This document shows, piece by piece, positions 23,075 to 58,932 of a stretch of DNA of 64,000 nt. Under the pieces are notes generated by a model. The model saw nothing but the letters and a program-made list of their open reading frames with translations, did not search any database and was not told the origin of the DNA. Numbering within the stretch: the first letter of the stretch is position 1; the number at the start of each line of letters is the position of its first letter. Both the position numbers and the translations under genes were made by a program. The stretch covers positions 31,584,689 through 31,648,688 of the forward strand of contig NC_052511.1 of NCBI RefSeq assembly GCF_014356525.2, read 5' to 3'. The DNA is from Nilaparvata lugens. Lineage: Eukaryota; Arthropoda; Insecta; Hemiptera; Delphacidae.

Positions 23075-23274
23075 TTAGAGCAGCCAGCGGGCAGTAAGGA
23101 TGCTGAGCGCGAGCGTGATGAGCGTGGGGAGGCCAAGCGTGGCGGAGGCCCCGGTCACCACGATGTCGCTCTCACGCACCAGCACCTGATCGATGACGTG
23201 GATGACGCCGTTGGTACACTCCACGTCCGGCCGGAACACGTGAACCCACTCGTTGTTCCACTCTATGTAGTAGC
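23075..23274 (-). CDS. Fas1: Fas1 last coding exon: end of domain 4, GPI tail, stop
   Basis: The split Ser codon is followed by YYIEWNNEWVHVFRPDVECT and the H2 box GVIHVIDQVLV. Then comes a small-residue stretch TGASAT (a possible omega site region) and a hydrophobic tail LGLPTLITLALSILTARWLL before TAA. That architecture is a GPI-attachment signal, as known for insect Fas1. The acceptor TTGTTGAAG|GC lacks a polypyrimidine tract, so its use should be checked. It follows the 5.6-kb last intron. Confidence 0.93.
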
Positions 23275-26200
23275 CTTCAACAAACATCATCAACATCACA
23301 TTATTTATTCAATTTTGTACAATTACACTTGAAGGAAGTCTACCGCACTCTATGTAGCACGGTAGCCTAAAACACCATCCACATCACATTATTCCACCAT
23401 TTTTCAATTTATTGGTTTCTTTGGTACTTTTATTCTATTTACATGAACCTTCAACATTTTCAAATACCTATTCCTGGACCAAAATTTCAATGGCGAAGCA
23501 GTGATGAGTGATTTCATAACCTAATATTAGACATAAAATTTACTTTTTATCAAAATTTTGGAGAGGAATGGTACAGGCTCAGCCTAGTTTTTCCCTCCAT
23601 GGCCATGATTATATATTTTTTTCAATAAATGAACAGATAAAATGACTCGATTTTGTACAATCACACTTCAAGGAAAACGCAACATCTGCTACTTCTTAGA
23701 TTAATCAATGTACTTATTATTATTTTTTTTTTAATTCCATACATTGAATCACAATTACAGTAGCGGAATTAAAAAACTATAATAAATAATTTAGGATACA
23801 AACATTTTAAATTAAGATTCTCTACGAAATGCAAAATATATTGCTTTGGGGTTTAAAAAATCATTAAAGCTACAGTAGTTAAAAAGTTCCTAACTTATTG
23901 AATAAAATATTATTTACAAGTAGGCCTAGCATGGATTACGTCTATGAGATATACATGAAACTGTCAGCATTATTATTACCGTTTTATTCATAAGGAATGC
24001 TGACAGTTTCAAGTGAGTCTCGCTGTATCATTACCGGCAATTGAATAAAGACTACCTAATTTATAAACAAATTGAGACTTGGAACATTTAAACATTTTCC
24101 CATCCAACCAAACACTGAAAGTTTCAAGAGAATACACTATAGCAGTCTATTCTTGAGAATTGAACTTGATAATCTAGATTTCCAAGTGATTAAAACAAGT
24201 TGAGACTTGGACAAAATATCCGTGTTTCCAAATTCTTGCGAAATGTTTATCTTTTCAATTCAAGTCCATATATGATTGAATATACTCAAATTTACTACTC
24301 TGCTTCTACTGTGTTGTCAATATGAATATATCCAGTGATATGGGCTTGCATGAAATTTCGAACAATTTGGCAACCGGATATTTTGGTCATGTCGCAACTT
24401 GTTTTAATCACTTGGAAACTAGATTATCAAGTTCAATTCTCAAAAATAGACTGCTATAGTGTGATGCACTTCAAACTTTGAGTGTTTGGTTGAATGGAAA
24501 AATATTGAATGTTACAGTCGCGTCACTAATGAGTCAGTAGCTGTTCGAAATTTTATACAATTGATCTGAACGCATTTACTCGCAGTAATCATGGAGCATT
24601 GGACTTGTGTGGAAAGTATAATAGCTGTGACTGAATTTTCTAAAAGGCAATATATAACTGCCACACAGAGGATATTTTATTTATTTATACATTGATACAA
24701 TATCATTCTCAACTATGAATGATTGGGAAAGGAACAACAGGCTTAAAGCCCAAAACTGTTCCTTTCCCAAATTTGGATAGAAATTGAACGTATGACCGCC
24801 ATGTACGTATCCCTGAGATGTTATTTTAAAGGCAAGGTGCACCATACATTTCCTGCAACAAGCCATGAACTGAGGGAATACATAAAATTACTGCCATTCT
24901 CCAAGATTTGCAACACTGTCATTCCAGAGTTTTCATAACAGACTGATCACACATTTCCGATGTCATCTCAAAATGTAAAGAACAACGTTCGAAAAAAATG
25001 ATTGTAGAATTGTAGGGACATGAATGGCATGCTAAATACATTCCATTACATTAATAATTCACCATTTTTATGATTTTATTCGTAGAATAAGATTATTTCA
25101 AAATTTTCCTTTTCGCTGCGCCAACCTATACTTATACTAGATGATATTGGGGAATTAAACTAAGTGGCGGAGGGGTGTACCAGAAGGAGTAGTTATAAAA
25201 TATCTATAATAATTGTGTTATAAATGGGAAGGTAATTTGAAAAATGTTTGATATTAACGTCAATTAGATTCTCAGTCCTAGAATTAGACCTATTAGATTC
25301 TCAGTCCTAGAATTAGTCCTATTAGATTCTCAACTCTAGATTCAGTCCTCCAATAAACATATCATAAGTTAAAATGTTACAGATATATCCCTCAAGAAAA
25401 TATGTCTGCAGCTTAGTTTCTCATGCAATGAATCACCTGTGATTTGGTTTGATTTATCACCTTGGAGGAAAATACTAGAGCTAATCAACATTTTTCAATC
25501 AAGATATATCATCCAAACCTACCATTCATTTATTCGAATTTGATTGCTAATTTTAAAATAAGTTTATAATTATATGTACTGTTGTCGTATACTCTACCGA
25601 TACTTTGAGTAAGTAACTAAGAAAGGATACATTTATTTACTTTTATAAGCAGAAGCTGACAATTCAAATTTATACTTGTTAGTTGTTAGGCTTTACAAAT
25701 AGAAAAAGACAGTTTAAAGATTAAGTTCAAACTAGCTCGAAAAATCTAGCTACTAACTACTCAAACGTTTGACATTGACAATCAAAACACTACTATAGCG
25801 ATGATCAGAATGAAATCACGGTAAACGGAACATAATTTGAATGATATTGAAGCAATTCCACTGGAATATTTACTAACTTTGAGAACATTTCTAAACTTAA
25901 AATATTGAAGTCGTACAAATACTTTTTGAAATTATTTTCAACTTCTAAGTCCCATTATTACATCGAATAAGTAATTTCTACACGAAATTTAAATACCTTT
26001 AATCATTGTTTTTGATTGGTGAATCATAACTGGAACAATGTGGATCATTTTTGACAAGACTAGCAATCTCCACATTGTTATTAGAACTAGGCTATATATA
26101 TATATTAATGGCAACACAGTCTTTCAAAGAAAAGTAATGTGTATGAATAGAAAATCCTGAATAGAAAAATTGTAGTCTTAAATCATAATGATTCTTTCCA

Positions 26201-29200
26201 AAATAACAAAAATCATTTTTCTTAAATGAGGATTGAACAATACGGAAAGGACTTTAATATGAAACATGTTATAGATTTCAGTAGCCTATCAATGAGGTCA
26301 ACAACTAAAAAATAATGAATTAGTTAAATTTCGATTCACAATTACTAGATGCAAAATATTATTGAAATAATTAAGAATAATATATTTTTGAAATGATGCA
26401 TATCAATGCATCTGAATTGTGCCTCGTTATTGTGTATGGAACTTATGCTAAAATCGGCTCGGTTAGATAATGCAAAAAGTCATCATTCTCAAAATATGCT
26501 ATCATTTTTGAAAAATCATCATCGACATCGTGTCATTGCTTCCAAAAATACAGTGATGTTATGGTTATAGCAGCATGAACAACAATACAATAAGCAACTC
26601 ATATCACATTTGAAACGTGTGAGAAAAGGATGAGAGTGACATAATCAATTTTCAATGCAATATGCAATACTTTCAAAAAGAGCAAACTGTGAAGTTGGAA
26701 ACTGATGAAGAACATTAAAAACTCAAAGAAAACTTTTACAGAATAATATGGATGGAATATGTGGAATGAAGTATGGATAATGAATAAATTTATATTTAAG
26801 GTTTTTTCTGTTTTTTTAACGGTTGGTGTCATACTCCATTTGATGAGGAAATTCAATTTAAGGCATTTAATAAGCCTTCAACTGGTTATAAAAATTCAAT
26901 TTGACATCAATTTTTTAAACCTCACAATAATAATTACTATATTTTTGTACTACTGCATACTGTATTCATATTTTTTGTAACGCTGTTACTAATTATTATA
27001 ATTGTTTAATGTTTTAAAAAGTAAAATGAAAAAAATATATATTGAAATCAAATTGAGCAATGAAATTCAAATGAATAGAAAAATCACGGTCATATTTATT
27101 GAAGATGCTCCAGAATTCTTAGTCAAGCTCGCTTTGATTTCCTTGCAACCAATGATGGGAACTAATCGTTACAATTTTAGTACGGTAGCTGGTTGCTAGA
27201 CAATCATTGCAAGCTTGGCAGAAAACGATTTCAAGAAGCATCTTTAAATACGATCCTTAGTTTAACAGTTTAACAGTAAACTCTGGTGAGGTTATTAAAT
27301 TTTGACATTCTATAGATGAAAACGGTTTTATTTCAATTATTATATTATTTCATGTTTGCCAAACTGCAAGAGAATTATCACATTACAAACATTCTTCCTG
27401 ATGCAACATGTACGGTATTCACTAAGCTTGTTAAATCATTCTCATCCTCAAGAACACGTGTGAAAGATGTATTATTATTAGTGTGAACAAAAACTGAACA
27501 GCTTCAGTGATTTGGGTGGAACTACCAATGTTAACACAACAAAAGAAAAACAGTGAGTGATCCAAGATCACGTTTCAGTTCATTCTTGATTACAAACAGA
27601 CTCACCAGTGTGAACGGAATGATTCTCATTTTCAGCAACGTCTGCTCGTAAAAAATACAAACAATAATGTCACGCCAATAGAAAAAATAGAAAAACTTCT
27701 AACTGGTGACCAATATCAACATTTAAGTAATTACTACTTAGTGACTGATATAGGCTAATTTGGTATTTGAAAAACGGGAGTTGTTTTCTCAAATTCTCCA
27801 ATACAAGCTCATTAATAGAAAATAGATTTTTAAAAATGGGTGATCTTGAAAAAGCCAGCCTGCTTTCAAAATTCAAGCGCAAAAATGTTAATTACTTATG
27901 CTGGCAGCAGCTTACATTACGCCTGAATCTGTGGCACCGAAAATTAGCTCGTTTCAAATGTATTTACTCAATGAATATAAGCTTGTTTAATGCCTAGTAA
28001 ATGACCTAGCCTACTGTATAACAAAAAATTACCAACAATTGTAATACATCTAGAAATATATTATAGAGTTTTATATTGAGAGTTAGATTGAATTTTCTCT
28101 GCCAATTTTAGAATATTTCATCTATCTTGTGAATTCCAGTAATGACTGGTATCCTGATGAAACTCTTACTCTATCCCTCACACAAACATAAAAAATTCAG
28201 ATCTGCATACGGTAGGTGTCTAATAATTTACATAGTTCAATTAAAACACAATCAAACTTATTATTAGTAAGAAATAGTTCTCATTTTATAACTTTGAAAT
28301 AATAACATTGGAGAGAAAATCTTCAACATTAAAATTAATACAGAATGACAAAGCTATAGTATGATGTTGAAAGTTTAATTTTTTTGGAATAACTACATCA
28401 GAAATATAAGTTTTGTTTCAATTACAACAGAAAGATTAATTTTTAGTTCAAGTACAAAGTGAATGATTTATTTAGTAGAATATATCACTATAAGGAGTGA
28501 AGAATAAATAAAATAAAATAAGTTTTGTTTCATTAACAATAGACCTCAACGTTAAATTGATTGTTTCTCTGATAAATTTATAATTTCAAAACTATTTCCG
28601 GGATTTCTAATGATGTGCTGCAAAAATCGTAACTGATCGAAAAGCAATATTGGTGCCACATCAAAACCTCTTTAAGTGAGCACAATTATTATTATCAAAG
28701 AAAGCCTACTATATAAACGTGAACAAAAAATATATGATTTAGGAGTTTCGTATGTTGGTACAATAACATTACAAAACATGATTCAAGTAAATAAAAGTGA
28801 AAAATGTAAAAAACTGGGAAATTGGAGAGATATCAAGATGAACATTGAGTTGAGTTGAGTATAAACATGCGAAATAGTTGAGAATGAACTTACTGTTGTC
28901 GTTTTCCTTGACGCGGAGCTTAAGCACATCTCTGACGGTCGGCAGTGTTATGGTTTCATTGCTCATGCGTTTCAGTTCAGCCATGGTGTAGGACACATCT
29001 GCCACCACAAGATGTCTTTCCAGGATTTGCTTCACCTTTTCATAGAAATACGAATATAAAAATGACGATAATTTTGAGGAATGGAGAGAGTAACTGAGAA
29101 TATAATAGTTGTAAGAGATAGCGCCGTATAGGTGTGACATTTGATCAATCAAGAAAATTCAAACAAAATTCAAATCTGTCTTAGGCCAACCAGTACTTAT

Positions 29201-32200
29201 GAAAATTGAGTCACTATCTGTCTGGAACAAGTAATCTATAATAACCTGTCAACTTGAAACACTGACTGAAAATAGTGTAGGCCTACAGTTATTCAATACA
29301 TTTATGTCCTCTAAACAATAAGTTTGATACGAAGTTTCAATAGGTTCAAAACTAGTTCAAAACTAGTTGATAATTAAGTGATTAACTGAATTACTGGTAT
29401 AATTAAGTGAATTAGTGGTAACTAAGTGATTGAACAAAAACAGAATAGTTGGTAAGTAAAGCGGTGAGTGTATTTTGATAAATTCAATAAATTTACTTGA
29501 ATCTATTAAATTAAGCTTAATATCTATAGTTGGATTTAAAATGAATTCTATGTTTATGAATACATAGACTGAATTTATTATATATTACTTGATGGCTAGT
29601 GATCAATAATAAGTAGGCCTATTAAATTGAGCTTAATAAATATCTATATCTTTGGATTTTATATGGATCCTATGTATATAAATTAATAAACTGAATTCAT
29701 ATACAACTTGATAGCTAGTGATCAACATACATGGTAGCCAAATTCCTTCATGAAGATTTTCTTGTGGGCAGACGGATAGCGAGTTTCCAATCGGCTCCAG
29801 GCATAATCACGTGGCACAAAGTAGGTGAACCTTCGCCTCATGTCATCCAACTGGTAGTTGAAATTCTCCTGAATTCCCAAATGGTTGGTTTTACTGCAAA
29901 ATTAAAAACGGAATTGGAAAATTGGATTTGATTTAACACTTGATACTATATTATCAAGACTATAAGTAAGACTAATAAATAATAGTTTCCGCTATAAATG
30001 TTGATTCCTGAAGACAATATCCTTCAGGTGATCATTATTCGAGCCTTAGCATCACAGGAAGCGTATACGAAGCTTTTGTATATCAAAGCAGTTAATATTG
30101 AAATAGGATTGAAACTGATATTACATTATTACAAAGCTTTTCAATTGGAATTGTAGCAATTTATTATGAAATTATTATATTCATGTCAATATTGTCATTG
30201 AGCGTGTGATGTAGGCTTAAACCTACATCACAATATTTCAAGTAGCAATAATTATTAACGAAATCTGTATTATTGGAGTAAATACAAATAGGTTGTTGCA
30301 TTTTAAATACAACAACGAGAAAATATGTCACATACCAAGATCACATCAGTGATCTTGGAGACCATGGAATGTCAGTGGAAACTGGTATTTTCTCCATAAT
30401 AAAGGACGGCAGGATGCATTTAAACGCATATATGATCTTGGAAACTAAGCCCACCTTGTGTACAACATTCCTGAGCTGAGAGCCCAATCATGTAGGAGGC
30501 ACTCCGCAATGTAGTGGGGAGCATTCTTTGCTCCTCGGCAAAGCCACTCTCAACACTGTATGAATAACAATTACCTATTGTTCCCCAAGAGTGAGAATAG
30601 AATTCTCATTAAGAGAATCATACATCATAGTCCAGTCAAATGATAGTTTTTTAGGAAACAGCCCCGAAAGAATTTTTCTGGACAGTTCGATATGTATTTT
30701 GGGGCGCTGAATTCGAATCTGAAATTTGCTGACTCGCCAGAGGGCGGCTTCACCCCCAAAACCAGTCTACTCATGGTATACAGATCTACAGATGGTAAAC
30801 CAATCTACTCTGAAGTACAGATGACTTGCATCCTCCCACTTAGGTGAATCACCATGGAGAAGAGGAGAAGAGGTGTCTCTCCACCCTATGAAAGTGTGCA
30901 CAAGGCTTTCGGGAGCTCTCCACAAGTGACCCTACCTACCCACTCCTGAAACTCAACAACTTGATAACTGGTCTGGTAAATTATGATTGCCAAATCTCAA
31001 CATGCGATTGTTAGAATTCTCCACATCTGAAGACTATATTTCTGTTTCCAAGAGTTTAATGGTTTTTTCTAAAAAGAAAATTCAATTACAAGCATTTTGC
31101 TTAATGAGTCTGCCATTGAATGTTCGAATTATATTCTTAAGTGACTTACAGAATACTCGTACTTTTTCTCATAATACTTTTACACTTTCATAATACATTA
31201 TTTAGTCCAGTCAAGGAGGGTTATAGAGGGAAAGTTTGCGCCTTTGAGCCCCCTTAGCTTAGTGGGTAGGGGTGGAGACTTTTAATGTTTGCCTCCTTAC
31301 TACCCTTAACAGAACAGCGGGGTCAATAATTGTCTTCTAAACTTTCCCCTCTATACGCTTTTTTGAGAATTCATTGCTTGGACTAGTTACTTTTTACATA
31401 GGTAATGATTTTGAAAATTTTCTGAAAATACTTTTTACTTTCAAAGTTCTCTTTGCTACTCGATATGTATAGCGTTCAAAGGAGTCTAGTCTGATGAAAA
31501 TGTATTTCAATTAAACAAGAATACAGGAATTAGGAGTGCCTCAGAACTGCGAGTTCCAATTTGTCTAGTGTAGGCTATGGTCAATTTAGGTTATGTTCAA
31601 TTGGGTTAGACAAAAGAAAAGGTTGGGGAGGGTAGGTTTTGGCTTTTGAATGGCAATATGTAAATATTATTTGAAATGTGTTGATAATTTTAATAAAATA
31701 AACACAAATAACAAGAAGTTGAAATACTCGCACATTTGAGATATCGTACTTACGAATGAGACACCCCAGGAATGCAATTGTTACAACGGTACTCACTTGA
31801 TCATGGGATCAGTAGCCAACTTGCGTCCGACGGTGGTGAAGGGAACTCCCAGAACGCGGTCAATGATGTGCACAATGCCGTTGATTGCTGCGATGTCCGG
31901 TTGGATGACAGTGGCGTTCACTCCCCCTCCCTCAACGGTCAGCGTCTTGTTGGCTCCCGTCTGCAGCACGTTGAAGTAGAGACTGCGTCGCGGCGCCGAC
32001 GTCGCAATCTGAAACAGCTGACCGTAAACGAAAAAACAAAGCCGGGCCGGGAGAGAGAGAGGAGGGACCGAAACCAAACAAAAGAGTGAACAACAAAAAA
32101 GTGCATTAGATATCTCGACACTGCAGCCGACGATACAATACACTCACATCAAATACATAACTACATTATTCATATAATTAAATACATGATTTGAGATTTT

Positions 32201-35200
32201 TTTCATGATTCACAGTAATACTTGAGGAGAAATGAATGCAGGTCTTTATGTAATTGAAGTACTGTACTCATCAAGTTTCCTTAAATTTCAAAAAAAGGCT
32301 TTTCAAAGGGATTGAAACTTGTTTTTGTTTTTTTTTTCAATTTAATCGGCATTTTTTTACTATAGATATTCATAAAATCCAAGGTTTATAGGGACAGATT
32401 GGGAATTGCCCATATTTTGTCATATCAACTTCTTGGATAAGATTGACTTAAATCGGGGCACGAGTCATAAATTTATTTGGTTGGTATATTTCATAGATTC
32501 TCAATTATCAATGACACTAGGAGCTTTATTCTGTGGCATTTGGCATTACTACGCGACATGACTAGTCACAGAAGTGATGTTGTCTACAAAAACGACAAAG
32601 TTGGTCTAAGTGTAACTTTATTTACCTTGGATGAAATGGCCCTGAACTTTGTGGAGCAAACAATAACCAAAGAGTACATTATTTCAATGCTAGTAGCAAA
32701 TAGAATAAATTTACTGTTACTTTTTGAAAAAAAAATACTTACTGTCTCAATTTTGAGTTCAATGAGAATCAATTAACCTCTTACTTCATGTAAAAAAGTT
32801 TTCATTTCCAATACTTACTCCATGATTTCTCTCTTATTTCACTGTTTATGTAGTTTATAGTTTAGAGGAGTGAAAAATTTATCTATTTTGGAAATTTTTA
32901 TTCATTAAAATTTGGAGGAGACAGTTTAGGACTATTCCTATTGTTCTTTCCCGATCATATTGTATATTATGATTTCTGACTCTGTTAATAAATATCATCA
33001 GCAACGAGACACCCTCTTTTGCTAAAACATATTTCAATATTATAATAAATTGAATCTGAAACTAACCAGACATAGATCTCATTCATACAAAAGTAGTATG
33101 GTCAGAGAAAATTTTAGTAAATAATGAACCATGAGTAGGTACTGAGTGAGTACTTATTCTAACTTACAGATTTGACTTCCAGTCAGATAGACTACAGAGG
33201 TTATTCTTTGAGAGATAGCAAACTTCAGTTTCAATTGAAAATCGTAATTTAATCCATTATAGATTAATTAGACATTAAATGAAAAAAATGAACAACATAG
33301 ACTTTACAAACCTGATTCTGATTGTTGGTAATAATTTTGTCGAGCGTGAGTTTCTGTTCGACGAGATGCATGTTGAGGATTTCCTGGATCTTGGAGCGGT
33401 CGCGCAGTAGGTTGTTGAGGTTGGAGTCTTCCCAGGCGGCATTGGATGGAGCGAACAGAGTGAGCTCTCTGAGGCGGGTGATGCGATCCATGAAGTCACC
33501 GCCCGTGTCTCTGATCGTCTCGTAGAACTTGTACAGAGGTCCATCCTCACGATCCTGCAAAACAAATTCACATTTTATAATACTGTCCATCGATTATTGA
33601 CTGAATCACTTGATAAAAACCATACTAGGTCCCGATTTCTAAGAAACGTATTAAATCTAATGTAACATTAAACCTATAGATATCATATACATTTAATGGT
33701 ACATTAGATTTTAGAAGTATCCCAAAATCGTGCCTAGATGTGTATCAGAAAGAGTGCAATGTAACCCTCAGGTGTACAAGACATATCAAAGAGATTCGAC
33801 ACATATCACAGATCTAATCATTGAACACTAGATCTGAAATATTATATTAGAAGTATTGCAATGTAATTCTTTAGGAGTACAGTACCAGTTGGAAATATTC
33901 AACATATTATCAGAAAAGTTGTCATTCAACATTATACTTTCTTGAATAATTAATTTATTTATTGGAAAGAGCAAATAATACAAATAGTCGGAAAAGGAAA
34001 AAACAGGCTATTGCCCAAAACTTCTTCTATTTCCTAATTTTGTCTAAAATCGTCCAAATATTATGTAGGTTATGTCCATTTCAATTCCTACATCAAATCA
34101 TCAATTTGTTAATTGATGAAATTGAGCGATATCCAATGCCTTGAGTGATTCTACACATCAAAGATTCTCTCACTGACTCAGAATATTATTTTGAGTGATA
34201 GAAGGAAATTAGAATCATGTTATTGTTATCAAAACAATATTTATATTCCAAGCAATATTTTGGAATTTATTTCAATTTATCATTGAAATCGATTTAACAC
34301 ATCAAAATTTTGAAAAACTTTAGATAAATAATTGATGCAAAAGACTCTAAAGAATTGAAGCGCATGCGTTTAGTCACTATTGAGCAATCCTTCATTAGAA
34401 AGCCAGTCAAGTTATGTTTGTGGACGACTTGAAAAACAAAGAGAGCCTTTAGGTTATTGAACATGTGCATCAGTAGTTATAATTACTTGTTTAATAGCTG
34501 GAATGGAAAATCAAAAGTGGATTATCACTGTAATAATAATCATATACATAACATTCAACATGACAAATTCTAACATCATAGGTACGGTATTGAAACAATT
34601 ATTGTTATAAAAACATTTTATGTACCTATAGAATGGTTATATTTGATATGCATAAATGCAACATGCGGTCATAATCTTTCAAATACGTTGACACACTTGA
34701 AGATAAAATTATATTTTCAGAATGATCGCACATGTATCTTTTCGAAATAATGAACAGATATTAAAATCATTCAATATCGTAGAGTAGTAGTAAACTCGTC
34801 CAGCTTTCATTTAAGCGTTTTCAGCAGAGCTTTTTATGTTGTGCCTCATTACAAAAATAATAGTTTCTGGTTCTTATATACTGTAGATGTCATCAGCTTG
34901 ATCAAGACGTACGAGAAAGCCAAATCTAGACCATTTGAATTTGCTTGATAAAAAATTTACAGGACTGGAATTGTGCTATCGACTTCAAGATCTTGGTAAG
35001 TATAACAGAGTTATTATCATTCCAATTGGTGAGCACTGTCGGAGAATTCAAGGTAGTTACAATAACTATTTCTAGCATCATTTAGGAAAATATTACAAAC
35101 TTGGACATCATCAGTCTATTGGACCTCTAATATCCTACGATTGCGGATTGAATGCAACAGGCTTTCAGTATGGATTGGATATTTCAATAATAATGAATTC

Positions 35201-38200
35201 TACTTCATGTAACAACTCTCCCTACAAAGCTTATCATATTCTCATGTCGTGATTGGTGCGGCATCATACGATATACAAACCTCAAATAATCCTACAAAAA
35301 CATTTGGTAAACCCAGTTCAGGGAACGGAAATTTTCGAAGAAATTGGAGTTCACTTATTGCATATTAGTTTGCTAGCTATTGAATTGAAGTATGCTCGAA
35401 ATTTCGTAAGACGAATTTGATGAAGTTCATTAATTCAAGGCGAGAAATCAATCCTAATAAACTCAATACAGTAAGTCAATCCTAGAATCAGTTCAAGTTT
35501 CACAATAAAATGATTTAATAATTGGAGTTTGCTGAAATGCGAATAAATGTTATTCACTGCATCCTGAACATTTTAGGAACGTAGACAAATAGACACAACT
35601 TTTTTATCAACATGAACACCAGTAACGATATAACATAGTTATAGTAACGATATAACGACTGATAGTTTGTCTTCATGAAAAACTCACTACATATTTTGTG
35701 TTGATTCTATGTTTCTATTCACACAGTGCATTAGAAGACATTGAAAAGTTTAGACATTTTTAATAAGCTTGGAAATAATTCCAAAAATATGGTTGAGAGA
35801 ATGACAAAATGAGTCCTAAAAATTGCCATCTATTTTCAAAAAATACGATGTATGTCACGTACATTCTAGATTTTGAGTTTTGTTAGAAATAAATACCATA
35901 GATTGCTTCTAGAGGAAAAAACTAGTTCTGAGCACCGATATTAGAATTTTTAATAGAAAAAGCAGTTGAAGGAAAAAATGGTAATGATGATGATGATGAT
36001 GATTAGGGATGATGATAACAAAACATTGATTTTTTAACCTAAAAAACACAAGGTACAGATTTTCACTGTGTTGATTTTGGTCCAATGCAACCCATTTTTT
36101 GTGTATAAGGAATAAGTTTCGGAGATATTCTCATGCAAAAACTAAATTTCTGTACCTACTGTGCTGTTAGTAGATTATCTACTCTGTGTCGTTGTGTTAC
36201 AAGTTCTTGCTAGTGACATTGAAAGATGATGGCATTACAGGTATATTAATGATGGCATTATAATATTGAAAGATGATATCAGGTTGATCAGGTTGTAAAA
36301 TAATGGAATATGCATTAAAGGTTGTAGTTCGAATACCTAGTCTAGCTGTTCACAAAGAAAATTTGATAACAATATATTTATTTTGATTTTTTCAAAATTT
36401 ATTTCCGTTTACAAGCAGATTAGAATAAAATTCATTCTGACTTGGTTAAATTTTTATGAATAATAAAAATGATCATAATTATTGATATTCATAATATTCA
36501 GAATAAACTTGATGCAAAGTTTGAAATACTCCAAGTGAAAATAAACAACTGAGTTTGAGATACTCCAAATGAAAATAAACAACTAACTTTAAATGAGTGA
36601 GCTTTCAAGAATTGATTCTATCATCTGCTTGAATCGTTCTCGATTTCAGTTTCTTACAGTAGTTCCATGGTTTTCTATTATGTTTATTCTCCTTATTATT
36701 TAATTGATTCGTTAATACGTTCAATTTATTTTAACACGTTTTTCAATACAATGAACCTGTTTATGGATCTTATTTCAAAGATATGATAATAGCCAACTTG
36801 AGATAACTAGCAACTTATTATCATTTATTAATTGTTCATTTTCATTTTTCAAGTCCAATTTCAAGTTCAAGTCAGAAATTTACCGGCTATTGTTTTCAAC
36901 TTTCTAATTTTGGAATTGAGATAAAATTTATCATGAATAAAATCGATTAGGTAATTCACTTTTTATCCCTAGTTCAACATTTTTTTAGACATTATTATTC
37001 CATATTCAACGGTATATTGAGATAATTATGATTAAGCAATAATATGCTCATGGATTTATTTATACTTAACTGCATTTCGTCTACTCGATTATAATTTTAT
37101 GGCAAATAATTTGAATTTGAATTTTCAGTAATGTTCATCAAATAAAGCAAATGGAAAACTCGGTAGATTGGAGTAGAACAAAATAGAATCGAAGCCAATT
37201 CTCTATTTCAATGTTTTTTCTGGAATTCAAATTTCTGAGCTTTAGAGTTATCATTATAATACTGAGTATTTTTACTTTTGTGTATAAGTGCATTTATGAT
37301 TCCTTGCATCGTGAGAGATTTTTCATGTAATTTAGAAGCGTGTTGCGTGAATTCGAATCGAAAGCATTCTACACTAGTTGCGAGTCCAAAAGTACACATC
37401 AAGCTGCAACAAAACCAAACTATATTGAAATATATCAGAACATCTAAACGAAACTTGAAAGGTGTGCAAGCAAAGTAGTGTAGAAAGAAATACTTACAAA
37501 ACCCTGGTCAGCCCATGCAGAGCGTAAAGCAATAAGAGGAAAACACCGAAAAACATAAACACAAACATTTAGATCATCAATAAAATAAAGAACACACACG
37601 CATTCACACACTGCTGATAGATAATATATTCAATGCTGAAGTCACACATATATTTATTTATTCAAATTTATTATTATTCATTCTACTAATCTAATTTTTC
37701 ACATCACCAATATTTCATCATTGACAGAATAGTTTGGATATTAGTTGCTGTTGGGAATTCGAAACATAAATTCGAATATAAATTGAAAAAATCAATGACA
37801 GGAAAAATACATTAAGGCATATGAGACGAATAATAAAATAATAAAATTTACGAATGGAAACTATTGAATTAGATAGCTCCAAGCTCTGGATATGAATGTT
37901 ATAAAGGAGCTCCATAAAATTTATATGAACAAAAGATAGAAGATTGATAATCAAGAACTCTATTTTTGTCATAAGTATTTAAAAAAATTTCAAGGCATTG
38001 TAAATACAGAGTGAAAATTTGATCAGCATAATATAAATAATATAAATTGATAAATAAGATAAATTGCCCTAGGCTACAATATTCGCAACATCATGAGGCC
38101 AACCATAACAATATAAAAACAAGCAAAAAAGGTTGAATTTTTCTCTAAATTGACTTGGAATGATTGTTTCACAAATTTATTTAACTAGCTGATCAACTTC

Positions 38201-41200
38201 AGTGACCTATGATTGATATAAAATCAACGATAATTCATTGCAAAGCAATTCATATAGTGAAAGTTATACCTTCAACAGTAGATAATATTAATATTATATT
38301 ATTAATAGTACTAACAGGAATCAGTGGGAATATTCTAAAATTTTTATGAAAATGTTCTTCAAACTGAGATTAAAAGTTTGATATTCTAAAAAATGTGTGA
38401 CTTCAACATACAATAAAGTTTTGAAACAATGATGATCTATCGTGGGTAATAAATCACAGTTACTTATAGAAAAGTAGTTGTGGAGAACAGAATCTATTCT
38501 CCACACAAGAAAGATAAATAATTTTACGTATCTGTGGAAAGCAAAAGTGAAATAACGCTAAAGCTGATAGGTGAAACTGTATTCAATATCATTGCTTTAT
38601 ACTCGACAAAATTTACTTTTAATACATATTGCTTGAGCTGTCAGGTTGAATTATTTACTTGAGCGAATCAATAGAATGAGACTCAATGATTCAATAGAAA
38701 CAATGACTGAGAATGAACATTAGCTGGTACATTAATTACGTCTCAACAATGAAAGAATGATCAAAACTAAATATATTGACGATTTGTAAATACTGATAAC
38801 TTCATCAATTATACTGTACTGCAATTAAAATATTGTACGTACCAATACCAAATTACAAAGATAATACTTCAAATTTTTGATACCGTAACTGTAGAATTTA
38901 CACTTTTTACATGAAATGCAAAATACTACTAAAATAACAATGACGTTGGTAATGTGATTTTTGCAAAAAATGAAGAGATTCTCACTAAGAACTCCAATGG
39001 ACATTGAAATGGAAAGTTTATACAGGAGCATATCAAAATTCAAAAAGTGAAAAATCAAAAACATTGCATTGCAAAATTGTGAAGATTGAAAAATGAGAAA
39101 AATCAGAGCATGACAACAACATGCAAGAGGGAGAGAAAAAGAAAGAAAGATAGAGAGAGGTATGACAAAGATTCTAGAATGCATGTGAATGACCTGACAG
39201 AAGTTACGTTGTCAAATTAAATTTATTTTATTCTATAAAACGTACGATGCAATCAACACTAATAATGAATTATTAAGAAAATGGGAGAGTTGAGCCCACA
39301 TTGATTTCTACCGTAGGGCTACACAACTATAACTCCATATTGAAACTTCAAGTAATCAAGGTATTGATTCATATTCATAGATTAACTTTTCAAATCTGTA
39401 TAGGCCTACGTTATTTATACTGAAGACTTGGATTGACTAATAAATTTACATCAAGCTGTATGGCTATCTGTAGTTGTTGAGCCCCTTACTTCAATTTTAT
39501 GTGTCGTGTAGGTAGAAGCAAGCTAAGTTCATCCTACATTCTCGCAATACTATTAGAGCCGAGATATGATTAATCCTTTGAACAGAAGCTGAGAATAAAA
39601 ATAAAGTACGACATTAAACTGATATTTTGAATGAGGCTTGAGTATAATATTATTACTACAGTAGGCCTGTACCGTATATATGTTTTGGAGGAAAGTTTCA
39701 AACTACTTTTAAATTGAAAGTTAGAGGTTTTCCTGAACTGCTTATGAATGATAAAAAATCTCACTTACTGTTTAGGGATTACTTAATAGAATATATAAAG
39801 CATGGGCGTAGAACCTCCCCAATATTTTATGGTATATGCTATGTCCCCCAGAAAAATTTATTGAAGATTCAAATTATGGCTGGTAATCAAAACAAACCAT
39901 ACGGTACTATTAATGCTGTTTTTTGTAAATAATTTTTATTTAGTAAAACTTAAAACTATTAACTCAGAATTTTATTTATTAACTCATTAATTTACCTCTG
40001 CCGAATAAGAGGATTTAAAATCGTTTTGAAGTAAAATATGCCATTTTAATAAGATATTTTCAATGTCAAATAGCAATCTACGCCAATGATATAAAGGCTA
40101 TTAAAAATTAAATAATTGATAATATCAATTGCATTATTATTGAAATAGGCCCTATACTATTCATTCAATTCTCATAGAATACTTGAAGATGTTTTCCAAA
40201 TTAAAATCCAGAATTCGACTCATCTTGGTCGAATAAAATAAACGAATAACTGAGAATTATAGATCTTAATGTATCATAAGACTTATATTATTTCTTATTT
40301 ATATTGGGTTCCTATAAGGGAATGATTTGACGAAACTCAATTTGATTTACAAAAACGATCATGCACTTGTTTATTCATGCTATCTATTCATTAATGGTCA
40401 TCAACTCTTTAAAAATATCAATTTTCCAGGAGTAAGAATGATATTATAGTTTAATACATATTCTAATATTTAGCTTACTTACTTTCAACATAGATTTTCA
40501 ATCTTGGATATGGAGTAAGACTATCTAACAACTTTTTCTGAACCATTCAAGAATCAACATAATTATTTATTACATATAGTCATCAAACTAGTATTGGATT
40601 GAATTTACAAAAATCATTTCAACAACGAGATACAGGCAAATCCAATTTTGAATACTGAGCAACAACTTAAACTATAAAAAAATGTTCTAGAATCAATTAT
40701 AAATGACGATGAGTTCAGAAGAATGTATGAAATATGCTAACCGGAACCTCATTTAATATGAATAATAGTAAGTATAAAACTTTCACGTTTTAGTATATTT
40801 TTTATCGAAAACAGTAACTCTACTACATTCTGATAATGGGGGATTGATTAAAAATCAAAGGTTTGATGAGGGATGTAAGAAATATTAACAAATGTTTTCA
40901 ATAGGCTGCTATATCGTCACAAGTTGCCAGATAGTATATCTTATACTATAGCAATGATACAATACTCAACTTGAAAAACCACAATTTACGGTTGAGACAC
41001 TGTAATTGCCATGAAGTGTATCAAAGTCTCATAGAGCAGCCAACCATTGATTGTGATGAGAAACACTATTCCAATGAGAGGTGAAAGAGTACAATTCAAT
41101 TTATATTTCAGAAAGCAATAGCCAAACCAAAACTTTACGCTTAAAAACGCTTATGAATGAATATTTCAAGTTTCTTAGTAAGATTCGCGTTTTAAGTCAG

Positions 41201-44200
41201 TAACTGACTGACATTGATTTGCGATTCTTTTCTGTCATTAGACAAAGCAGATAGCTTATCCTTTTCTACCTCCGCACCGTTGCCAAATCGTTTGTAATCT
41301 TGAATGTCAATTACGAAAATGTATCACCAACATAAACATAATTATAAACATCACGAAAATACATATTTTCTCGGTTATTATATTTTTTGTGATAATATTA
41401 TAATTGATTACTAACAAGAATCAAGAATTAATAATCAATTAGATATGCAAAGATGACTTGAATCGCAGCTGTCTAAAATAGGAGGCAATGGAGAAAGAAA
41501 ATTGGCAACCATGGCGTCCTATCATTTACACTTGATAGTGTGAACCTCAGTTCAGAGGAATTGTTTTTTTGTTTTTTTTTTTAAATTGCAAATATCTAGA
41601 AGTAAAAATCGAATACCGTACTATGGAGATAAGAAAAGGGGATTTTTCCGGGGGATTTTCTTCTTACTACTCTGATTGAAAATTCAAAATGATGTTAGCA
41701 TTATTGTTATTATTATTGAAAAATATTTTTTGTCTTAATAACTAAGTAGCCGGAGATCAATTCTGATCTCAAGACTAAAATAGTTGCAATTCAAAGCAGA
41801 AACTCATTCACTCTTCTCCAGATCAGAGGCTTAGAAACTTACGTACAATATTAGTTGTACCAAGAACTGCTGCTTTCTGCATAATTCTCATATGCCAGTT
41901 CTCCAACTGCAGTTGTTCCATTGCTTGTCTCCATTCTTTTGTGACCAGTCTATTGGCAGACACTACAATAGGGATTATCACCACCTTCCTTAATTTATAC
42001 ATATCTTTCAGTTCAACTGACAGGGGCTGGTATTTTCTTTTCTTTTCGGCAATGGTTAATAATAATAATAATATTAATGGTAATAATAATAATAATAATA
42101 ATTATTATTATTATTATTATTAAAGTTGGAACATGAAATACAACTTCTCATTTCTAACCTTGGAATTATCAGACTGAAATTTCTAATTTCAATACACTTA
42201 GTTTAATTTATGGAAAATAAATTTGAAACTATCAATCGTGATAGCTTGATTTTAAATAGGATAAAATTAAAAGGCTGAATTAAGAAGCTTTGTTATCCGA
42301 ATTTCTACTGTACTATATTATTCCTACTTCAAGACGAAAAATTATTATTGACTCCAATCAGCTACCAATGGAAACTACTCTAGTAGAGCACTAAGATTGT
42401 TTTAAAATTCAAAGCAAATAAAACATGCATATTTTAGAACAAAATGTTTAGTGATGCATTAATTATTATTATTATTCGAATAATACTTTCAAAAATTTTA
42501 ATCGCGATTTGAAACAAATACTGATATGCTCTACAAGAGAAAAAGCACAACTTTAATTAGTTCAGTTAGAATGGTTTATCATAGCCTATTTTATGAAACT
42601 GGTTAAAAATTGAAATGGAGGATTAAAGAGTTCTATATTAATTATAGTACCTATTTGATTTTTCAAAGTTGCAAACAAATTCAGCTTAATATGAGAGTAT
42701 ATTACCAGCATAATACGAGGATAATTAGGCTACGTTCGCCTAATATTTTCGTTTCTATGTAAATTGCATATTGCACAACTATTTTTTATAGTATACATTA
42801 AAATAGGAAGGACGCATTTAATTTCCTGAAAATTAAGAAGATGGCAGTTGATCTCTAGCTTATTACATTTGTCAAGTTGCATTCATTGTTGAATGTAATA
42901 CGGAGATAATTTATATGATTAAATTAAACTTCTTCACTATGAAGCCATGAATCTTATGACCTAGATACGAAATCTTTTCCTACTTGAACTCCCATTAACT
43001 GGAACAAAAACACTATCTTCACCCTCACGAAAATGACAAATTTCAAGACGATGTTTTAATCAATTCAGTTGAATGGTGTAAACACCCTCTAAATTTTTCG
43101 CTGTCCAAATATTGATGGGTTACATTGAATTTCAAGCCAGAAGTTTGAGTTGACACATTTTGAAGTAGTCCTAGCAAGAAGACTGTGTTTAACTACCAAG
43201 ATATATCGAAAGCTGTTCTATTAACGACACACTCATAGTTACAAGCAAATCCATGACACTATTCAATACAGCCTGCGGCAATACAATAATAGCAGAAAGT
43301 TTAACTTTTTAGCACAGATTTAAGCTGAAAAACAGATCAATTTGAAGAGAATCGATGGATAATTTATACCAATTATTGATTTTTATATATTCAACTCACC
43401 TTGAAAGACTGAAATCCATCCAGCACCACGAACGAAGCAAGAACAGACAAAAACACATTTCGATTTTAACAATTTGTGACAAACTAATCAACTAGATGAA
43501 GCGAGTGAGTTAAAAATTAGAATAAAATATCAAGCAGTAGAACTATATAGGAACAGGAATTAGCAATAGTGGACTAAATTATGAATTTCAAATGTATTGA
43601 GAAAAAATTATTGGTGCTTAAACAAATAAAATCAATATTGTAATTATTAATTAATTATTGCAATCATTGTGATTGTCTCTGTTTTATTGTGATTTATTGC
43701 CAGTGACATCAAACGATTCACAACCAAAGCTTTGTGAATTATTGCTAGAATATTGTGTGAATTATGTAAATATCAAAAGATATATTCAAATGTGAGTGCA
43801 AAATAAGACTAAACTACACAACAGTAGTGAAAAAAAGTAATAGATTCAATGGATTAACCATCTACTTAACCACATATAATGGGCTATTAATTACCAAAAA
43901 AATGTATTCAATTTCAATTAGTTATAAAGTAAAGTTATTCAATTAAAATTCATTTTTCCTTTCATCAAAAGACACATAATTTCTAAGAAAGCGTTCTTGA
44001 ATTCTTCTTCCATTGAATATTTGAAAACATAGAATGTAAAAAACGACTAAATATAGAGTTCCAATAATAATATGGTTAATAAAGATGTTTTATATTCATA
44101 AAGTCATCTACACCAGTAGGGTAGCTGATTTCAATGAGTTTTGGCAAATGCTTGAAAAGCATTATATCAGTACCAAAACATGCACTGACCACATTCCACT

Positions 44201-47200
44201 GAATATATTTATTGTTAGGAGCAAAATCAGAGCCTTTAGCAAATTCAATGTTATTTGGAGCTTAAACTTCACGCTTATGGATTGCATAAATTTCCTAGAG
44301 CATCTATAATATAATATGCTAAGAATTGGTTTGTTGGGTCATGCAGTCATGATGCAGTCATCATAATCTAATTTCAAAACAAATTTTGAGTTTGAAATAA
44401 ATTGATTCAAGTAAAAATAAATCAATAAAAGAGTTTAAAAGAACAATAAAAAAAAAAAAACACGAAAAAGCTCATCTAGTTTTAACAGTTGTCATTAAAT
44501 TGGTCAATAAAAAAACTTTGAACTGTTGAACAGTTCCTGGTTATTTCAAATAATAAATATTTGAGTCAATTCTAAGTCTTTACTCTTTATATAGCTTTTC
44601 AGTTTATCTTTTGATAGTTTGACACCTTGTGAGACCGGAATTGTGAAGAACTCCCCGTGTTATCGGATGGGCACGTTAAACTGTCGGTCCCGGCTGAAGT
44701 ATGACAGTCGTAAGGCCCATTGACGGCTTAAATTATATATTCAGGCGGTGGGACCTTCCCGCAAGGGACTCCCCACCAACAAAAGCCATACGAATTTACT
44801 TTTACTCTTTATATACATAAATGATTTGAATATCCATCACAAATAACCTTCACTACTACAAAAAACATTATCAGATAATCATTTTATTCCTAGAAAGGTT
44901 TGAAAAATGCTTTGAGAACTATTTGCGTTTGCAAGAATGAGATTCATTCTTATTAAGACTTGGTAAAATGAAGTGTTTTATGATCTAATTAGCACAACAA
45001 ATAATCACGTTTTAATCGGTTAAACATATTTTTTGTTTAATAAAAGACTGACTTTCTAACCTATGTCAATGAGCCTACAAATGAAATTGTGAATGAAAAT
45101 AAGAAAGTTGTGAGAATGAAGTGATGAACACAACGGTTCAGCAATTTGACTATTGGGTGACTATGTTGCGGAAGAGGTGATTCGCTATTTACAGATAGAG
45201 AGAGGATAGGGTCATACCTCGAGGAACTGAGTGACAGTGGTGTCGACGACCATGAGAGGCCGATGAATCAGGTGGACGACTCCATTCTTCACTGGAATGT
45301 TGCCTTTCACAATCTCCGCCAACACAACGCCCGTCGAGTGAGTTTGGTCCCCGATTATTGTATGACTCTTAATGTAGGCTGTCAAAAGTAAATCATAGTA
45401 AGTTACATTTCATTCTCATAAATTTTCATGTAATTGTATAAGTCAAAAGGGAAAACACATAAAAAGAAAAAACTTCACAAAATATTTTAAATTTCAAGTA
45501 GGAAATATAGACTAATTGAATCTGAATGAGACATAGGCCTACCCATCACTCAATACTTAGTAGGGGTATTGAACTGAATTACAATTTTGATTAAGTATTA
45601 TTTCAATCCTCCAGAATTTATAGATATACAGTTCGCTATACACCAAGATCGTGTTGACCAAAATACTGTGAAACATTTTCAACATGAATTTTGAAAAATA
45701 ATGGTCGATAAGTACATGTATAAAATCTATGATTGAAAATAATGAATTCAATCTTCCAAACATTGTCAAAAACGATACGACTGTAAAAAAAATTGATTTT
45801 GAGTTTTATTTGACTGTAGAACTGTAGTAGGACATTCGATCCATTGACACAAAAATTTTCAATTCTATTAGAGCAATCAATTACAATTATTACTGTAGAA
45901 TATTTATCTATAATTATTGGAAATAGGTGAAAGTAATCAAAGCTGTAAAAATGTCAAGCAAGGAGTGTTGTTTCCTGAATGAAATGATCAATTATTACTA
46001 ATTGGATTAATGAATGAGTAATCAATTGCTTAGTTGTATTTCAACAAATATTTACGATTAAAGGGGAAATCATTATCAATCAGTATCAGTTATCAAATCA
46101 CATATACAGTATGTAAGTATCAAAGACATGATGATGTTTAAAAAATATTGACCTGTAACAAAAAATGTAGAAGCTATTGCATTATCAGGCTCCCACTCAC
46201 GAGAGGAGCAAAATTATCCCCATAGATCACCGTACCACCAGTAATTTTCTATTGTAGGCTTCTAAATTTTTATAAAGCAAGTTTCAGGCCAAGATAAAGT
46301 TTTAGGAAGGCCCTGAAAGAGATGGGTACCGGAACGGTTGATTTGATTAATCTTATCCCTAAGAAGAAGATCATGATGATAATGATTATTGAAAAAATCA
46401 ATCAAACTAATAACAAACGGTACAGAGAAAACTGTCAATATATTCAAAAATGAAAAAAACTGCATTGTTTAATAAGAAGATACGATGTCTTAGAGAGGAA
46501 ATGATGAAAATTACTTTTCTTGGCTCCCTTGTTGTCAGTTTCGGTGCTGAATGAGATGGTGACTTTGAGCATGTCGGTGAAGGCCATTGTCTCGTACTCC
46601 TTGTTGGATGGCGTCGGTTTGGTGAACAGCACTTTGCCCGGAATGATGTGGCCGTCGATCACCTTCGCGTCGATCTTCTCTGGTCGCGGAGGAGGCTGCA
46701 AACAATACCATTTTCAATACAAACAATATCGACAATTTTTAATATTGTCGATAGTTGACAAGTTGACAAGTACGTAACTGCTCGACTGCTGATAGTATTT
46801 CGACATTTTGCAAACTTTATTCTCCTAGGAACTAGGAAGTACTTGAGCTTTCATACTTGTGAAAACAATAATTTATTACTACTCTGTTCTGTATTAATTT
46901 GTACCTACATTGCATTTCGGCTATTTGTTTTGGAATGTTATGTCTAATAATATTTATATACATTTATAACATCAAAAACATAACAATATTGGAAAGAAAA
47001 ACAGGCGTTAGAACAAAATTTATTCTCTTTCTGAATTGAGTTCATCAGCCTTGTAAAAACATAAAATTCTTGAAGTGGTGAATTCAGTCAATTCGATCCA
47101 AAGTAGGGTTGTGTTCATCACTTCAAAAATTTTAGCTTTTTACAAGACTGATATAAATTTCATAGTTATAAATTTGAATTACAAAAGTTAACTTACAAAC

Positions 47201-50200
47201 ATTGTCAACTTTAAAACAATAATTTGAATAAGAAATAATATACGCACATACGAATCTTCAATTAAATCGAAACCAACTGAAAATAAAAATGGAACTGATA
47301 TACAGTATAAGGCTGGAACCAACTTGACTCTAGTAGAATTGTGTCATTTAACTGAAAACAGAAACATTCAACTTGAAGAAGATAAACGTTTGAAAATAAA
47401 ATTGTATAAAGGTTTAAAAAACGTGTTACAGTAAATTAGAATGAGAATTAAGAAAAAATAGTCTAAATTTACATTAATGATAGAATGACACTCTATAGGT
47501 ATTTTCATATAATTATTATAATATCTCTTATAAATATTCTCCTATTTAACGTATAATCAATTTTTTTTATTTTCTTTGTTGTATACAAGTTTTGCAACAG
47601 AAAAATATGTTTAAATAATATTTTGGTCAGTTTAAGTGAAGTAAATGGAGTTCTTCAAGATTAAATGATTTGTAGTTACCTGGAATCCTTCATCTACTGG
47701 GATGAAAAAAGTGTATCGGCCTTCAGCTCTAAAAAGGTCACTCTTTCCAGTTACCTGCACTCTTTGCCTGAACGACCTGGTAACATAGAAAACATGGCAT
47801 AAATAATTGAATTAACATTTGAAATTTTATGAATGTTGGATTCAGGTATTAATCTCATCATTTCACTGTGAAGATAAGTAAATTTCCCCAAAATATTGTC
47901 TACTGTTTTTGAAATGTTGAAAGTTAAAATAAAAATAGAAAGAAAAATAAAAATTTCATACCCTTTTTGAATTATTTAATCACAACATGTTTCGGACATT
48001 GATGCCATTTTCAAGTGATATGAAGTAAATATTATATGTGAAGTAAGTGAATATTATATGATTTACTTCATATCACTTGAAAATGGCATCAATGTCCGAA
48101 ACATGTTGTGATTAAATAATTCAAAAATCTGGTGTGGTACACTCACACAACTTTCCTTGCTCATATTCGAAACTACGATCAGACTTTTGTATATGTGTAT
48201 ATATTGTTTTCAGAGTACTTTTTCCTTTGTGTAAATTGTGAAATTCAATGATTTTTTTAGTCGTCATTTTTTTAAAGTCGTCAAAACAGCTGTTCTACAG
48301 ATGAAATATCTCGACTATGTGTTCTTTTTATGAACTGCTCTACCTACCTACCTCATGCACGAGAAGGAGGTTACAAAGTCCATTTCTCAAGGATGGGGTG
48401 GACCCCCCATTAGTTTCCCAGAAAGGAGACTCATGCCAGTTAATAGAGCTGATAAATAACTATACAGAGTATGAATTTGAAAAAAATCGGTCAAGTTATT
48501 TTGAAAAAATCGTGAAAAACATGGTTTTTTAGTAATTATCCGCCATTTTTCTCAAGAATATTACGGAGCTCCTGCAATTTTCCAAGGAAAAAACTCATGT
48601 CATTTGATAGGACTTATGAATAGCTACCCATGGCTTGAATTTGAAGAAAATCGTTAGAGCCGTTTTCGAGAAAACCGTGAAAAACCTGGTTTTTGGTCAT
48701 TATCCGCCATTTTTCTCAAGAATATTACGGAGCTCATGGAATTTTCCCAGAAATGAGACTCATGCCAGTTGATAGTGCTTATGAATTTAAAAATCCATGG
48801 TATGAATTTGAAGTAAATCGTTAGAGCAGTTTTCGAGAAAACGGTGAAAAACATGGATTTTTAGTCATTATCCGCCATTTTTCTCAAGAATATTACGGAG
48901 CTCCTGAAATTTTCCCAGAAATTAAACTTATGCCAGTTGATAGGGCTTAAAAATAGCTATCCATGGTATAAATTTGAAGAAAATCGTTGGAGCCGTTTTC
49001 GAGAAAACCGTGAAAAACATGGTTTTTTAGTCATTTTCCGCCATTTTTCTCAAGAATATTACGGAGCTCCTGAAATTTTCCCAGAAATGAGACTTATGCT
49101 AGTTGATAGGGCTTATAAACAGCTATCCATGATATAAATTTGAAGAAAATCGTTAGAGCCATTTTCGAGAAAAACGTGAAAAACATGGTTTTTTAGTAAT
49201 TATCCGCCATCTTGAATTGAATTTTATTGAATTTCTTATTGTCGGGTCCTCATGGTATAGGGACCTTAAGTTTGAAATTTCAAGTCGATCGGTTAATTAG
49301 GAATGGAGTTATCGTGTTCACAGACATACACACACACACATACACACACACACAGACCAATACCCAAAAATCATGTTTTTGGACTCAGGGGACCTTGAAA
49401 CGTATAGAAAACTTGAAATTGGGGTACCTTAATTTTTTTTGGAAAGCAATACTTTCCTTACCTATGGTAGTAGGGCAAGGAAAGTAAAAAGGGTACTGAG
49501 ATTTTTATTTTTCTTTCTATTTCTATAAAAAGTAACCCTATACAGAGAAGAGATAAAGTAGAAATAACTTTTTTTGTGAGAATGATTGAAATGTTACAAA
49601 ACGAAGGAAATTGTGATAAAGAATTACATATGTTAGATATGTTTCTGAATTTTTAATAATTATGAATTGATGGTGAATCAACTAGATTTCTATACCTAGA
49701 CAAGCAGCTGGAACAAAGAAGGATCAACTGACACATCACATATTTTACAAAATATTTGCGAAGAGAAATATTTACCTCACTCTGTGCTTATCAAGATTCA
49801 GATTCTCAGATCTGTTCAAGAACTGGAATGCATCAGGATTATTGACGTCAAGATCCTGGGAAATGGACCACACTGGCTCAAGAACATCGTCAACTATATG
49901 AAGAACCTGAAAAATATCAAGAAAGAAAGAAAATTAAAGATTTTTCAAATCCAGCTCTGAACTTTATGATTGGTAATTTATTTGTAAATTTTGATGATCA
50001 AGATGATAAAATAAACCAATCTATTAATTTTATTTACTATTAAAACCTCATTCTAACAGAGGCCCGATTTATGATAGAAAGCTTATTTACACATTATTCT
50101 ACCTGAACGTCAATGATGAGGAGAAAATGAGGATTTAACAAGATAACATAATACGGAACGTTGACATTTCCTACTTAGATAGATTCATGTGAAACTCAAG

Positions 50201-54080: not shown

Positions 54081-55140
54081 CCTTGAACGCCTTTTCCAAT
54101 CTCGTCCCACCATTATTCACGGAAATCTCTCCCCCCCTCCCACCAACCATCACCCGCCGAAAAAGTACAATCTTTTCCTAAAACGTGACACCGTAATCTA
54201 TCTAGGAGAGCCAGGGCTCGATTGAATTTGAAGAGCGCTACAAGTACCTACTATTGACTGTCACTGCATGTTGTATAGTGGAAGATATTTCTCAGTAACA
54301 TTTTCGACAAAATTTGACATCATTGAGAATACACACACAGAATCAGAAAGCTGAAATTGGATGCATACAGCTCAACTGGATTTTATTCATCTTGAATCCA
54401 AAGTATCCACAGTCATGAATGCTTCTCATATTCATTCATTCATAGATTTAGACTGCAGTTCATTAAAAAGTTCGGGGTAGGACCAACAGGCACAGCCAAA
54501 ATATTGATTCATATACTATTCCAAAACGTAGTTTATATTTCACACCAATAACAAAAAAATTTCCAACCTCTATAAACAATTTCCCAATATTGATTTTCGT
54601 ACTTCAAAACATATTCTGCAGAAACACGATGACATTTTTCCAACATTAGGGGATAACAAAGTACTCTTTAAAATATCCCTGGGGTATTCTATGTGTATTC
54701 CCAATAGGAGAATGTGTGAATACAGAAAAACATAGTTCTCATACATTTTTAATGAATCTTCTAAAAATTACCCTGAGGGTTTGTGTGAGTTAAAATGTTT
54801 CAATAATGTATGTCAATATGTGCGCGTCACCGTTTCTTCTTCAACTCGTTCATAAGTTCAAACCTTATAGAAGCCAGTGAAGTTTGCAAATTGGCTAAAG
54901 TTCAAAATAAGAAGGTAAATTTCATTTACAAACCCATTCAAATCAAATTAGTAATCCATGAAAGGGTGAGAGATATCAACCATAAAGAAGAGACTTTAAA
55001 CATAAATACAGAAGTAAGGAAAACAGCAAGCGAAGACTGGAACAATTTTAAAAGTACACAGTCGACTTCAAATGAATGAGAAGAAGCAAGTAGTGCATTC
55101 AACAGAAAACTGAAAACGTTCAATTCTAGTTAATTCCTAA

Positions 55141-55738
55141 GTAAAGGTGCCTAAAGCGAGTTAATTGAGATTTACTGTCAGCTACAGCTCTTGCGTGATG
55201 AGGATGAAAAAAGGAAAGAGAACGTTTGAGAAGAGGGAGAGATAAGGAATTTTGCTAACGAAGAAGAGAGATAGAATGAAAGAGAATATGAGAGATGAAA
55301 AAGAGTGAAAGTGTGAGAACAGGAGAGGATATGATAAAGGTGTTCAGCAAGGATGAAGAGAGATGAAGAGAATATGTGTGATGAAGCAGTAAAAGAGTGT
55401 GAGGAGAGGATGTGATAAAGATGTTCAACGCAGGAGAGAGATGAAATGAAAGAAAATATTAGAGATGAAGAAGAGTAGAGTGAGGAGAGCTGATATGATA
55501 AAGATGCTCACCAACGCAGAAGAGGTATAATAATATCTTCAACAACGCAAAGGTAGATAAGATGTAGGAGAATTGGAGTGATGGGCAATCAACCGGAAAA
55601 ATGAGTTAACTAAGAGGAAAAGGTCAGTTTCGAGCTCATGTTGAGATTCCTCCAGTGTGAAGCTGACTCAAAAGCTTCAAATCACAAGGAAAATCCTGTT
55701 TTCCAAACAATTTTCAGTGTAATCGATTATTGATTCTC
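55141..55738 (+). repeat. Duplicated purine-rich block, copy 1
   Basis: Runs from AAGGTGCCTAAAGCGAGTTA to GTAATCGATTATTGATTCTC. The centre is a degenerate tandem of GAGAGATGAA...GATAAAGATGTTCA motifs, purine-rich on this strand. It is nearly identical to 58933-59659 apart from small indels and one missing stretch of about 140 bp. The ends are non-repetitive. Confidence 0.85.
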
Positions 55739-58930: not shown

Positions 58931-58932
58931 GT

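Follow-up and report, generated by a model that had tools for sequence, protein, structure and literature searches.

Two in-frame micro-exons at the hinge between FAS1 domains 2 and 3 in the fasciclin-1 gene of the brown planthopper Nilaparvata lugens

Fasciclin-1 (Fas1) is an adhesion protein of nerve cells. In the brown planthopper, Nilaparvata lugens, its gene contains two short sequences, of 9 and 6 nt, between the exons for FAS1 domains 2 and 3, and both are confirmed as real Fas1 micro-exons. We consider it very probable that they are genuine N. lugens counterparts at the site of the fly fasciclin I micro-exons, where they most likely behave as cassette exons. The arrangement has been known since 1992 in the fly, and the N. 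lugens exons are already publicly annotated. Our analysis confirms this type of micro-exon pair in a crop-pest planthopper, adds a comparison in which the first slot is mostly SFK and the second differs between orders, and describes a motif layout shared by the two acceptors, which makes neural control by Srrm234 or ELAV directly testable. The gene lies on the minus strand of the window, by which we mean the whole 64-kb stretch of DNA that was analysed, and its relevant features are listed here.

23075..51881, minus strand: Fas1 coding exons in the window, 14 exons including both micro-exons, corresponding to isoform X3 residues 42-673.
45218..45378, minus strand: upstream exon, end of FAS1 domain 2 (...TVTQFLE), which ends CTCGAG/gtatga at 45218.
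43411..43483, minus strand: AG-free zone of 73 nt before micro-exon 1, with UGC at -31 and -17.
43400..43408, minus strand: micro-exon 1, 9 nt, TCTTTCAAG, encoding SFK; phase 0-0, AG acceptor, GTGAGT donor, unique in the window, present in isoform X3.
37506..37610, minus strand: AG-free zone of 105 nt before micro-exon 2, with UGC at -28 and -16.
37498..37503, minus strand: micro-exon 2, 6 nt, GGTTTT, encoding GF; phase 0-0, AG acceptor, GTAAGT donor, unique in the window, present in isoform X3.
33312..33554, minus strand: downstream exon, start of FAS1 domain 3 (DREDGPLYKFYE...), which begins gcag/GATCGT at 33554 (DREDGP).

Splicing of the 14 exons in the window, with both micro-exons included, yields 632 residues that are identical to residues 42-673 of the NCBI model fasciclin-1 isoform X3 of N. 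lugens (P0001), with no difference within those residues, which indicates that the window holds N. lugens Fas1 and that the public model already has SFK and GF. The hinge of this isoform reads QFLE-SFK-GF-DRED. Isoform X3 was also the best protein match when the exons that could be recognised were roughly joined and translated; this translation matched insect fasciclin-1 proteins and contained the Pfam Fasciclin family (PF02469); its first 41 residues gave no convincing match within the 64-kb window (best E 0.49). On the minus strand, micro-exon 1 stands in the context ...GGATTTCAG/TCTTTCAAG/GTGAGTTG (43408-43400) and micro-exon 2 in the context ...GCTGACCAG/GGTTTT/GTAAGTAT (37503-37498), and a first-pass annotation of this DNA had given the bases and coordinates of both exactly, base for base. 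All junctions that flank the micro-exons are in phase 0 and both lengths are divisible by three, which, together with the identity to isoform X3, bears out the claim of that annotation that two in-frame Fas1 micro-exons lie between FAS1 domains 2 and 3. Its expectation that automatic annotation would almost surely miss both was mistaken, because the NCBI model contains them; even at 6 and 9 nt, these exons had not escaped public annotation. The introns around the micro-exons measure 1,809, 5,896 and 3,943 nt, or 11,663 nt in total with both exons.

A micro-exon of Drosophila fasciclin I was reported in 1992 (McAllister, Rehm, Goodman, Zinn, J Neurosci 12:895, as cited in excerpts of PMC8042270 and PMC7392893). 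The excerpt of PMC8042270 states, citing that work, that the 9-nt fly exon alters binding specificity, and the excerpt of PMC7392893 describes 'two 9 bp exons' in fly Fas1. The second insertion of Drosophila is FLN (SFKFLND vs SFKD), which fits the latter description (PMC7392893), whereas the second exon of N. lugens is 6 nt and encodes GF. The N. lugens exons belong to the same gene as the fly micro-exons, which are alternatively spliced in the fly, and the two species have SFK at the same hinge. The first N. lugens exon thus encodes SFK, as in the fly type, and the second encodes GF in place of FLN, a difference that we do not treat as defining since the second exon differs between orders. 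The study of McAllister and colleagues reportedly also covers grasshopper, and the protein of the grasshopper Schistocerca piceifrons (P0027) carries SFKGF, identical to N. lugens. Among the titles returned for Nilaparvata lugens and fasciclin, none concerned Fas1 splicing. The main text of PMC8797185 does not contain 'Fas1' and uses 'fasciclin' a single time, for Fas2; neither 'Fas1' nor 'fasciclin' is present in PMC8055025; the retrieved passages of PMC11911433 are about Fas2, the matches in the retrieved parts of PMC10332324 fall in its references only, and the retrieved passages of PMC6032426 hold nothing on Fas1 micro-exons.

The acceptors of the two micro-exons share a layout in which a long AG-free zone contains paired UGC. 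None of the 11 constitutive Fas1 acceptors has two UGC in -50..-6, and in two of them the AG-free zone reaches 75 and 80 nt. With cut-offs that were set after the layout of the two acceptors had been seen (an AG-free zone of at least 50 and at least two UGC in -50..-6), the layout recurred at only 4 of the 1,333 AGs elsewhere in Fas1. A weak 3' splice site is a further trait of Srrm234/eMIC neural microexons; by a simple count, the 20 nt before the AG hold 10 and 11 pyrimidines at the micro-exons and 10 to 17 at the constitutive acceptors. According to excerpts of PMC8797185, the eMIC code of the fly comprises an AG-free zone, UGC, weak 5' splice sites, CUAAY branch points and short flanking introns. 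The N. lugens exons have the long AG-free zone and the UGC motifs in common with the Srrm234/eMIC neural microexons of Drosophila described there, and they differ from them in three respects: their donors are strong, since GTGAGT and GTAAGT are the full consensus; their flanking introns, at 1,809, 5,896 and 3,943 nt, are long; and no CUAAY branch point occurs within either AG-free zone. The shared layout is therefore a partial match to the neural code of the fly, and as an observation it is new but modest.

Neural control of the micro-exons in planthoppers is plausible, in which case the long AG-free acceptors with paired UGC would be read by neural splicing factors (Srrm234/eMIC, ELAV). We also considered alternative exons whose regulation lies outside the nervous system or shows no preference for any tissue, which is possible though on the unlikely side. 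Several eMIC features are absent, as that reading would have it, and U-rich, ELAV-like runs showed no clear excess near the micro-exons when TTTTT density was taken over 300 nt on either side (13.3 and 10.0 per kb upstream and 3.3 and 0 downstream, compared with 8.1 in the gene body). However, the combination of paired UGC and long AG-free zones at both acceptors argues against it, as does an excerpt of PMC9631114 that places Fasciclin 1 among the Drosophila genes with coding exons in the signatures that depend on ELAV when neurons begin to differentiate, with the exon itself unnamed.

To compare the hinge across insects, we took the best 120 matches from each of three protein searches (of 1,252, 1,137 and 263 matches), which gave 258 distinct proteins, and parsed their hinges by script. 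Among the 258 listed, 116 have no insertion, 36 have SFK, 27 SFKGI, 16 GI, 4 SFKGF and 1 GF, and 4 were unparsed, and these counts are not natural frequencies because two of the searches, the first and the third, are biased towards hinges that resemble SFKGF. The SFKGF form belongs to Nilaparvata, Homalodisca, Clastoptera and Schistocerca, and GF alone to the cat flea; the remaining forms in the list include long insertions in mosquitoes. Drosophila contributes seven proteins without insertion, two with SFK and two with SFKFLN, and by our reading the extra residue in its no-insertion forms is part of the fly's own next exon. Among the matches listed, SFK occupies slot 1 in bees, in flies and in the mayfly Cloeon (P0037), Lepidoptera have variants such as AMK or ARK, either alone or followed by GI, and Aedes has SFR; the presence of SFK in both Cloeon and flies suggests that this slot probably predates the separation of the mayfly and fly lineages. 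Slot 2 varies in length and sequence among the same matches: some hemipterans, a grasshopper and a flea have GF there, Hymenoptera and Lepidoptera have GI, and Drosophila has FLN. The PDB sequence 1o70, which is named FASCICLIN I and which we take to be the Drosophila protein, reads FLQ-SFK-E at the aligned hinge site, and together with the Drosophila isoforms that have SFK it agrees with the alignment to fly Fas1 proposed in the first-pass annotation. That annotation had also foreseen four proteins from free inclusion or skipping, and forms with no insertion, SFK, the second exon alone and both are all present among the 258 proteins, several of them within single species. Its view that the pair is conserved and ancient holds for the SFK slot and its age, and was too generous for the second exon, which is less conserved than implied (GF, GI, FLN).

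Within species, and among the matches listed, the isoforms of Apis mellifera are X1 with SFKGI, X2 with SFK and X3 with GI; Vespa crabro has SFK, GI and SFKGI; Hyposmocoma kahamanoa has AMKGI, AMK, GI, SRKR and no insertion; and a bee, ants and wasps show mixed hinge states within their isoform sets, with the caveat that RefSeq isoform sets are computer models. Every listed row of Microplitis mediator (3 rows) and Megachile rotundata (3 rows) is without insertions. For N. lugens, the matches listed include only isoform X3, which has both exons in, and the form of Laodelphax striatellus (P0002), 95% identical in the alignment with the N. lugens protein, is without either exon and comes from a 4.2-Mb scaffold, which suggests that it is probably a gene prediction. 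Both observations are compatible with one or both exons being constitutive in planthoppers, with the skip forms of relatives produced by annotation tools that miss micro-exons, but this reading is improbable in view of the mixed isoform sets of the bee, ants and wasps and of the forms carried on transcript-sized contigs of other insects. Among the 62 of the 258 listed proteins whose longest contig is below 6.5 kb, which we took to represent assembled spliced transcripts, 38 have no insertion, 14 have SFK alone, 5 SFKGI, 1 GI and 3 other insertions, and 1 was unparsed. We thus favour the reading that both exons are alternative in N. lugens as well. More tentatively, and with somewhat less than an even chance in our estimation, the insect Fas1 hinge may be an ancient two-slot switch, in which slot 1 (mostly SFK) has been kept from mayflies to flies, slot 2 is free in sequence and length, and a single neural acceptor code (a long AG-free zone with paired UGC near -30 and -16) acts across kilobase introns to allow combinatorial tuning of the linker in neurons.

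We next consider the protein. Two proteins were modelled with AlphaFold, each with a 64-row alignment: the N. lugens form, which has both peptides, and the Laodelphax form, which lacks them. The models predict that both peptides sit in the linker that joins FAS1 domain 2 to domain 3. With the peptides, the modelled linker spans 12 residues (338-349) between helices 332-337 and 350-359; without them it spans 7 residues (338-344) between helices 332-337 and 345-354. The helix at 332-337 is the end of domain 2, the helix that starts at 350 or 345, respectively, is the first of domain 3, and the structural elements around the hinge are the same in both models. Mean pLDDT for the block 341-350 is 64 with the peptides and 85 without, which is not a strict like-for-like comparison because the block reaches into the beginning of the helix in the shorter protein. 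On these models, inclusion likely makes the connection between the two halves of the Fas1 molecule longer and looser. Inclusion or skipping would add 0, 2 (GF), 3 (SFK) or 5 (SFKGF) residues to this linker and would leave the frame and the FAS1 domains unchanged, so that the choice of micro-exons could tune the length of the linker and the surface between the halves of the molecule, and a change in linker length may in turn alter adhesion.

The possibility of fortuitous matches was assessed by pattern counts and by a chance test in which the 11,663-nt intron was simulated 2,000 times with a first-order Markov model. Codons for SFK between AG and GT have a single match on both strands of the 64-kb window, at micro-exon 1, and codons for GF likewise match once, at micro-exon 2. 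In the Markov copies, the fraction with at least one AG/SFK/GT match was 0.006, and 0 with a GTRAG donor; for AG/GF/GT the fractions were 0.0485 and 0.001. Short exons are easily matched, as another AG-N6-GTRAG in the intron (38991, TTCTTA, FL) and the occurrence of AG/GF/GT alone in 4.85% of Markov copies illustrate, but we reject the reading of both sequences as chance splice-consensus matches in a long intron, whose probability is negligible given that codons for SFK and GF stand between splice signals in order, in phase and once each in 64 kb, that the Markov test rarely reproduced them, and that the public isoform X3 carries both and is identical to the spliced window.

Filters applied to the same intron returned three candidates for a third micro-exon, FL (38991-38986), KHRINTKYV (35714-35688) and S (34176-34174), and inspection of the list of 258 proteins found none with FL, KHRINTKYV or S alone at the hinge. 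The first of these, an AG-N6-GTGAG at 38986-38991 on the minus strand (TTCTTA), lies between the two micro-exons, has a 180-nt AG-free zone and resembles the start of Drosophila FLN. Only one other AG, at 42390, combines two UGC in -40..-8 with an AG-free zone of 70 nt; no GTRAG occurs in the next 70 nt, and it was rejected.

Three further observations concern other parts of the window. A 36-nt Fas1 exon at 27606-27641 (minus strand, phase 1-1), present in isoform X3 as ...NVAENENHSVHTG... and absent from the Laodelphax form, falls in a part of FAS1 domain 4 that is modelled with low confidence, and Hymenoptera, a grasshopper and other hemipterans have insertions of comparable length at the same site (119 of the 258 listed proteins were unparsed there). 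At 32009-32017 (minus strand), a possible tandem acceptor has its two sites 9 nt apart, CAG/CTGTTTCAG/ATTGCG; isoform X3 of N. lugens is spliced at the inner site, the Laodelphax form carries LFQ, which would fit use of the outer acceptor, and LFQ, IFQ or IYQ appears near this position in a cricket, a cockroach, Diptera and Lepidoptera (159 of 258 unparsed there). Upstream of the first Fas1 exon found, 55138-55530 and 58928-59323 are near-identical direct repeats 3.8 kb apart, with 290 nt at 100% and 105 nt at 98% identity.
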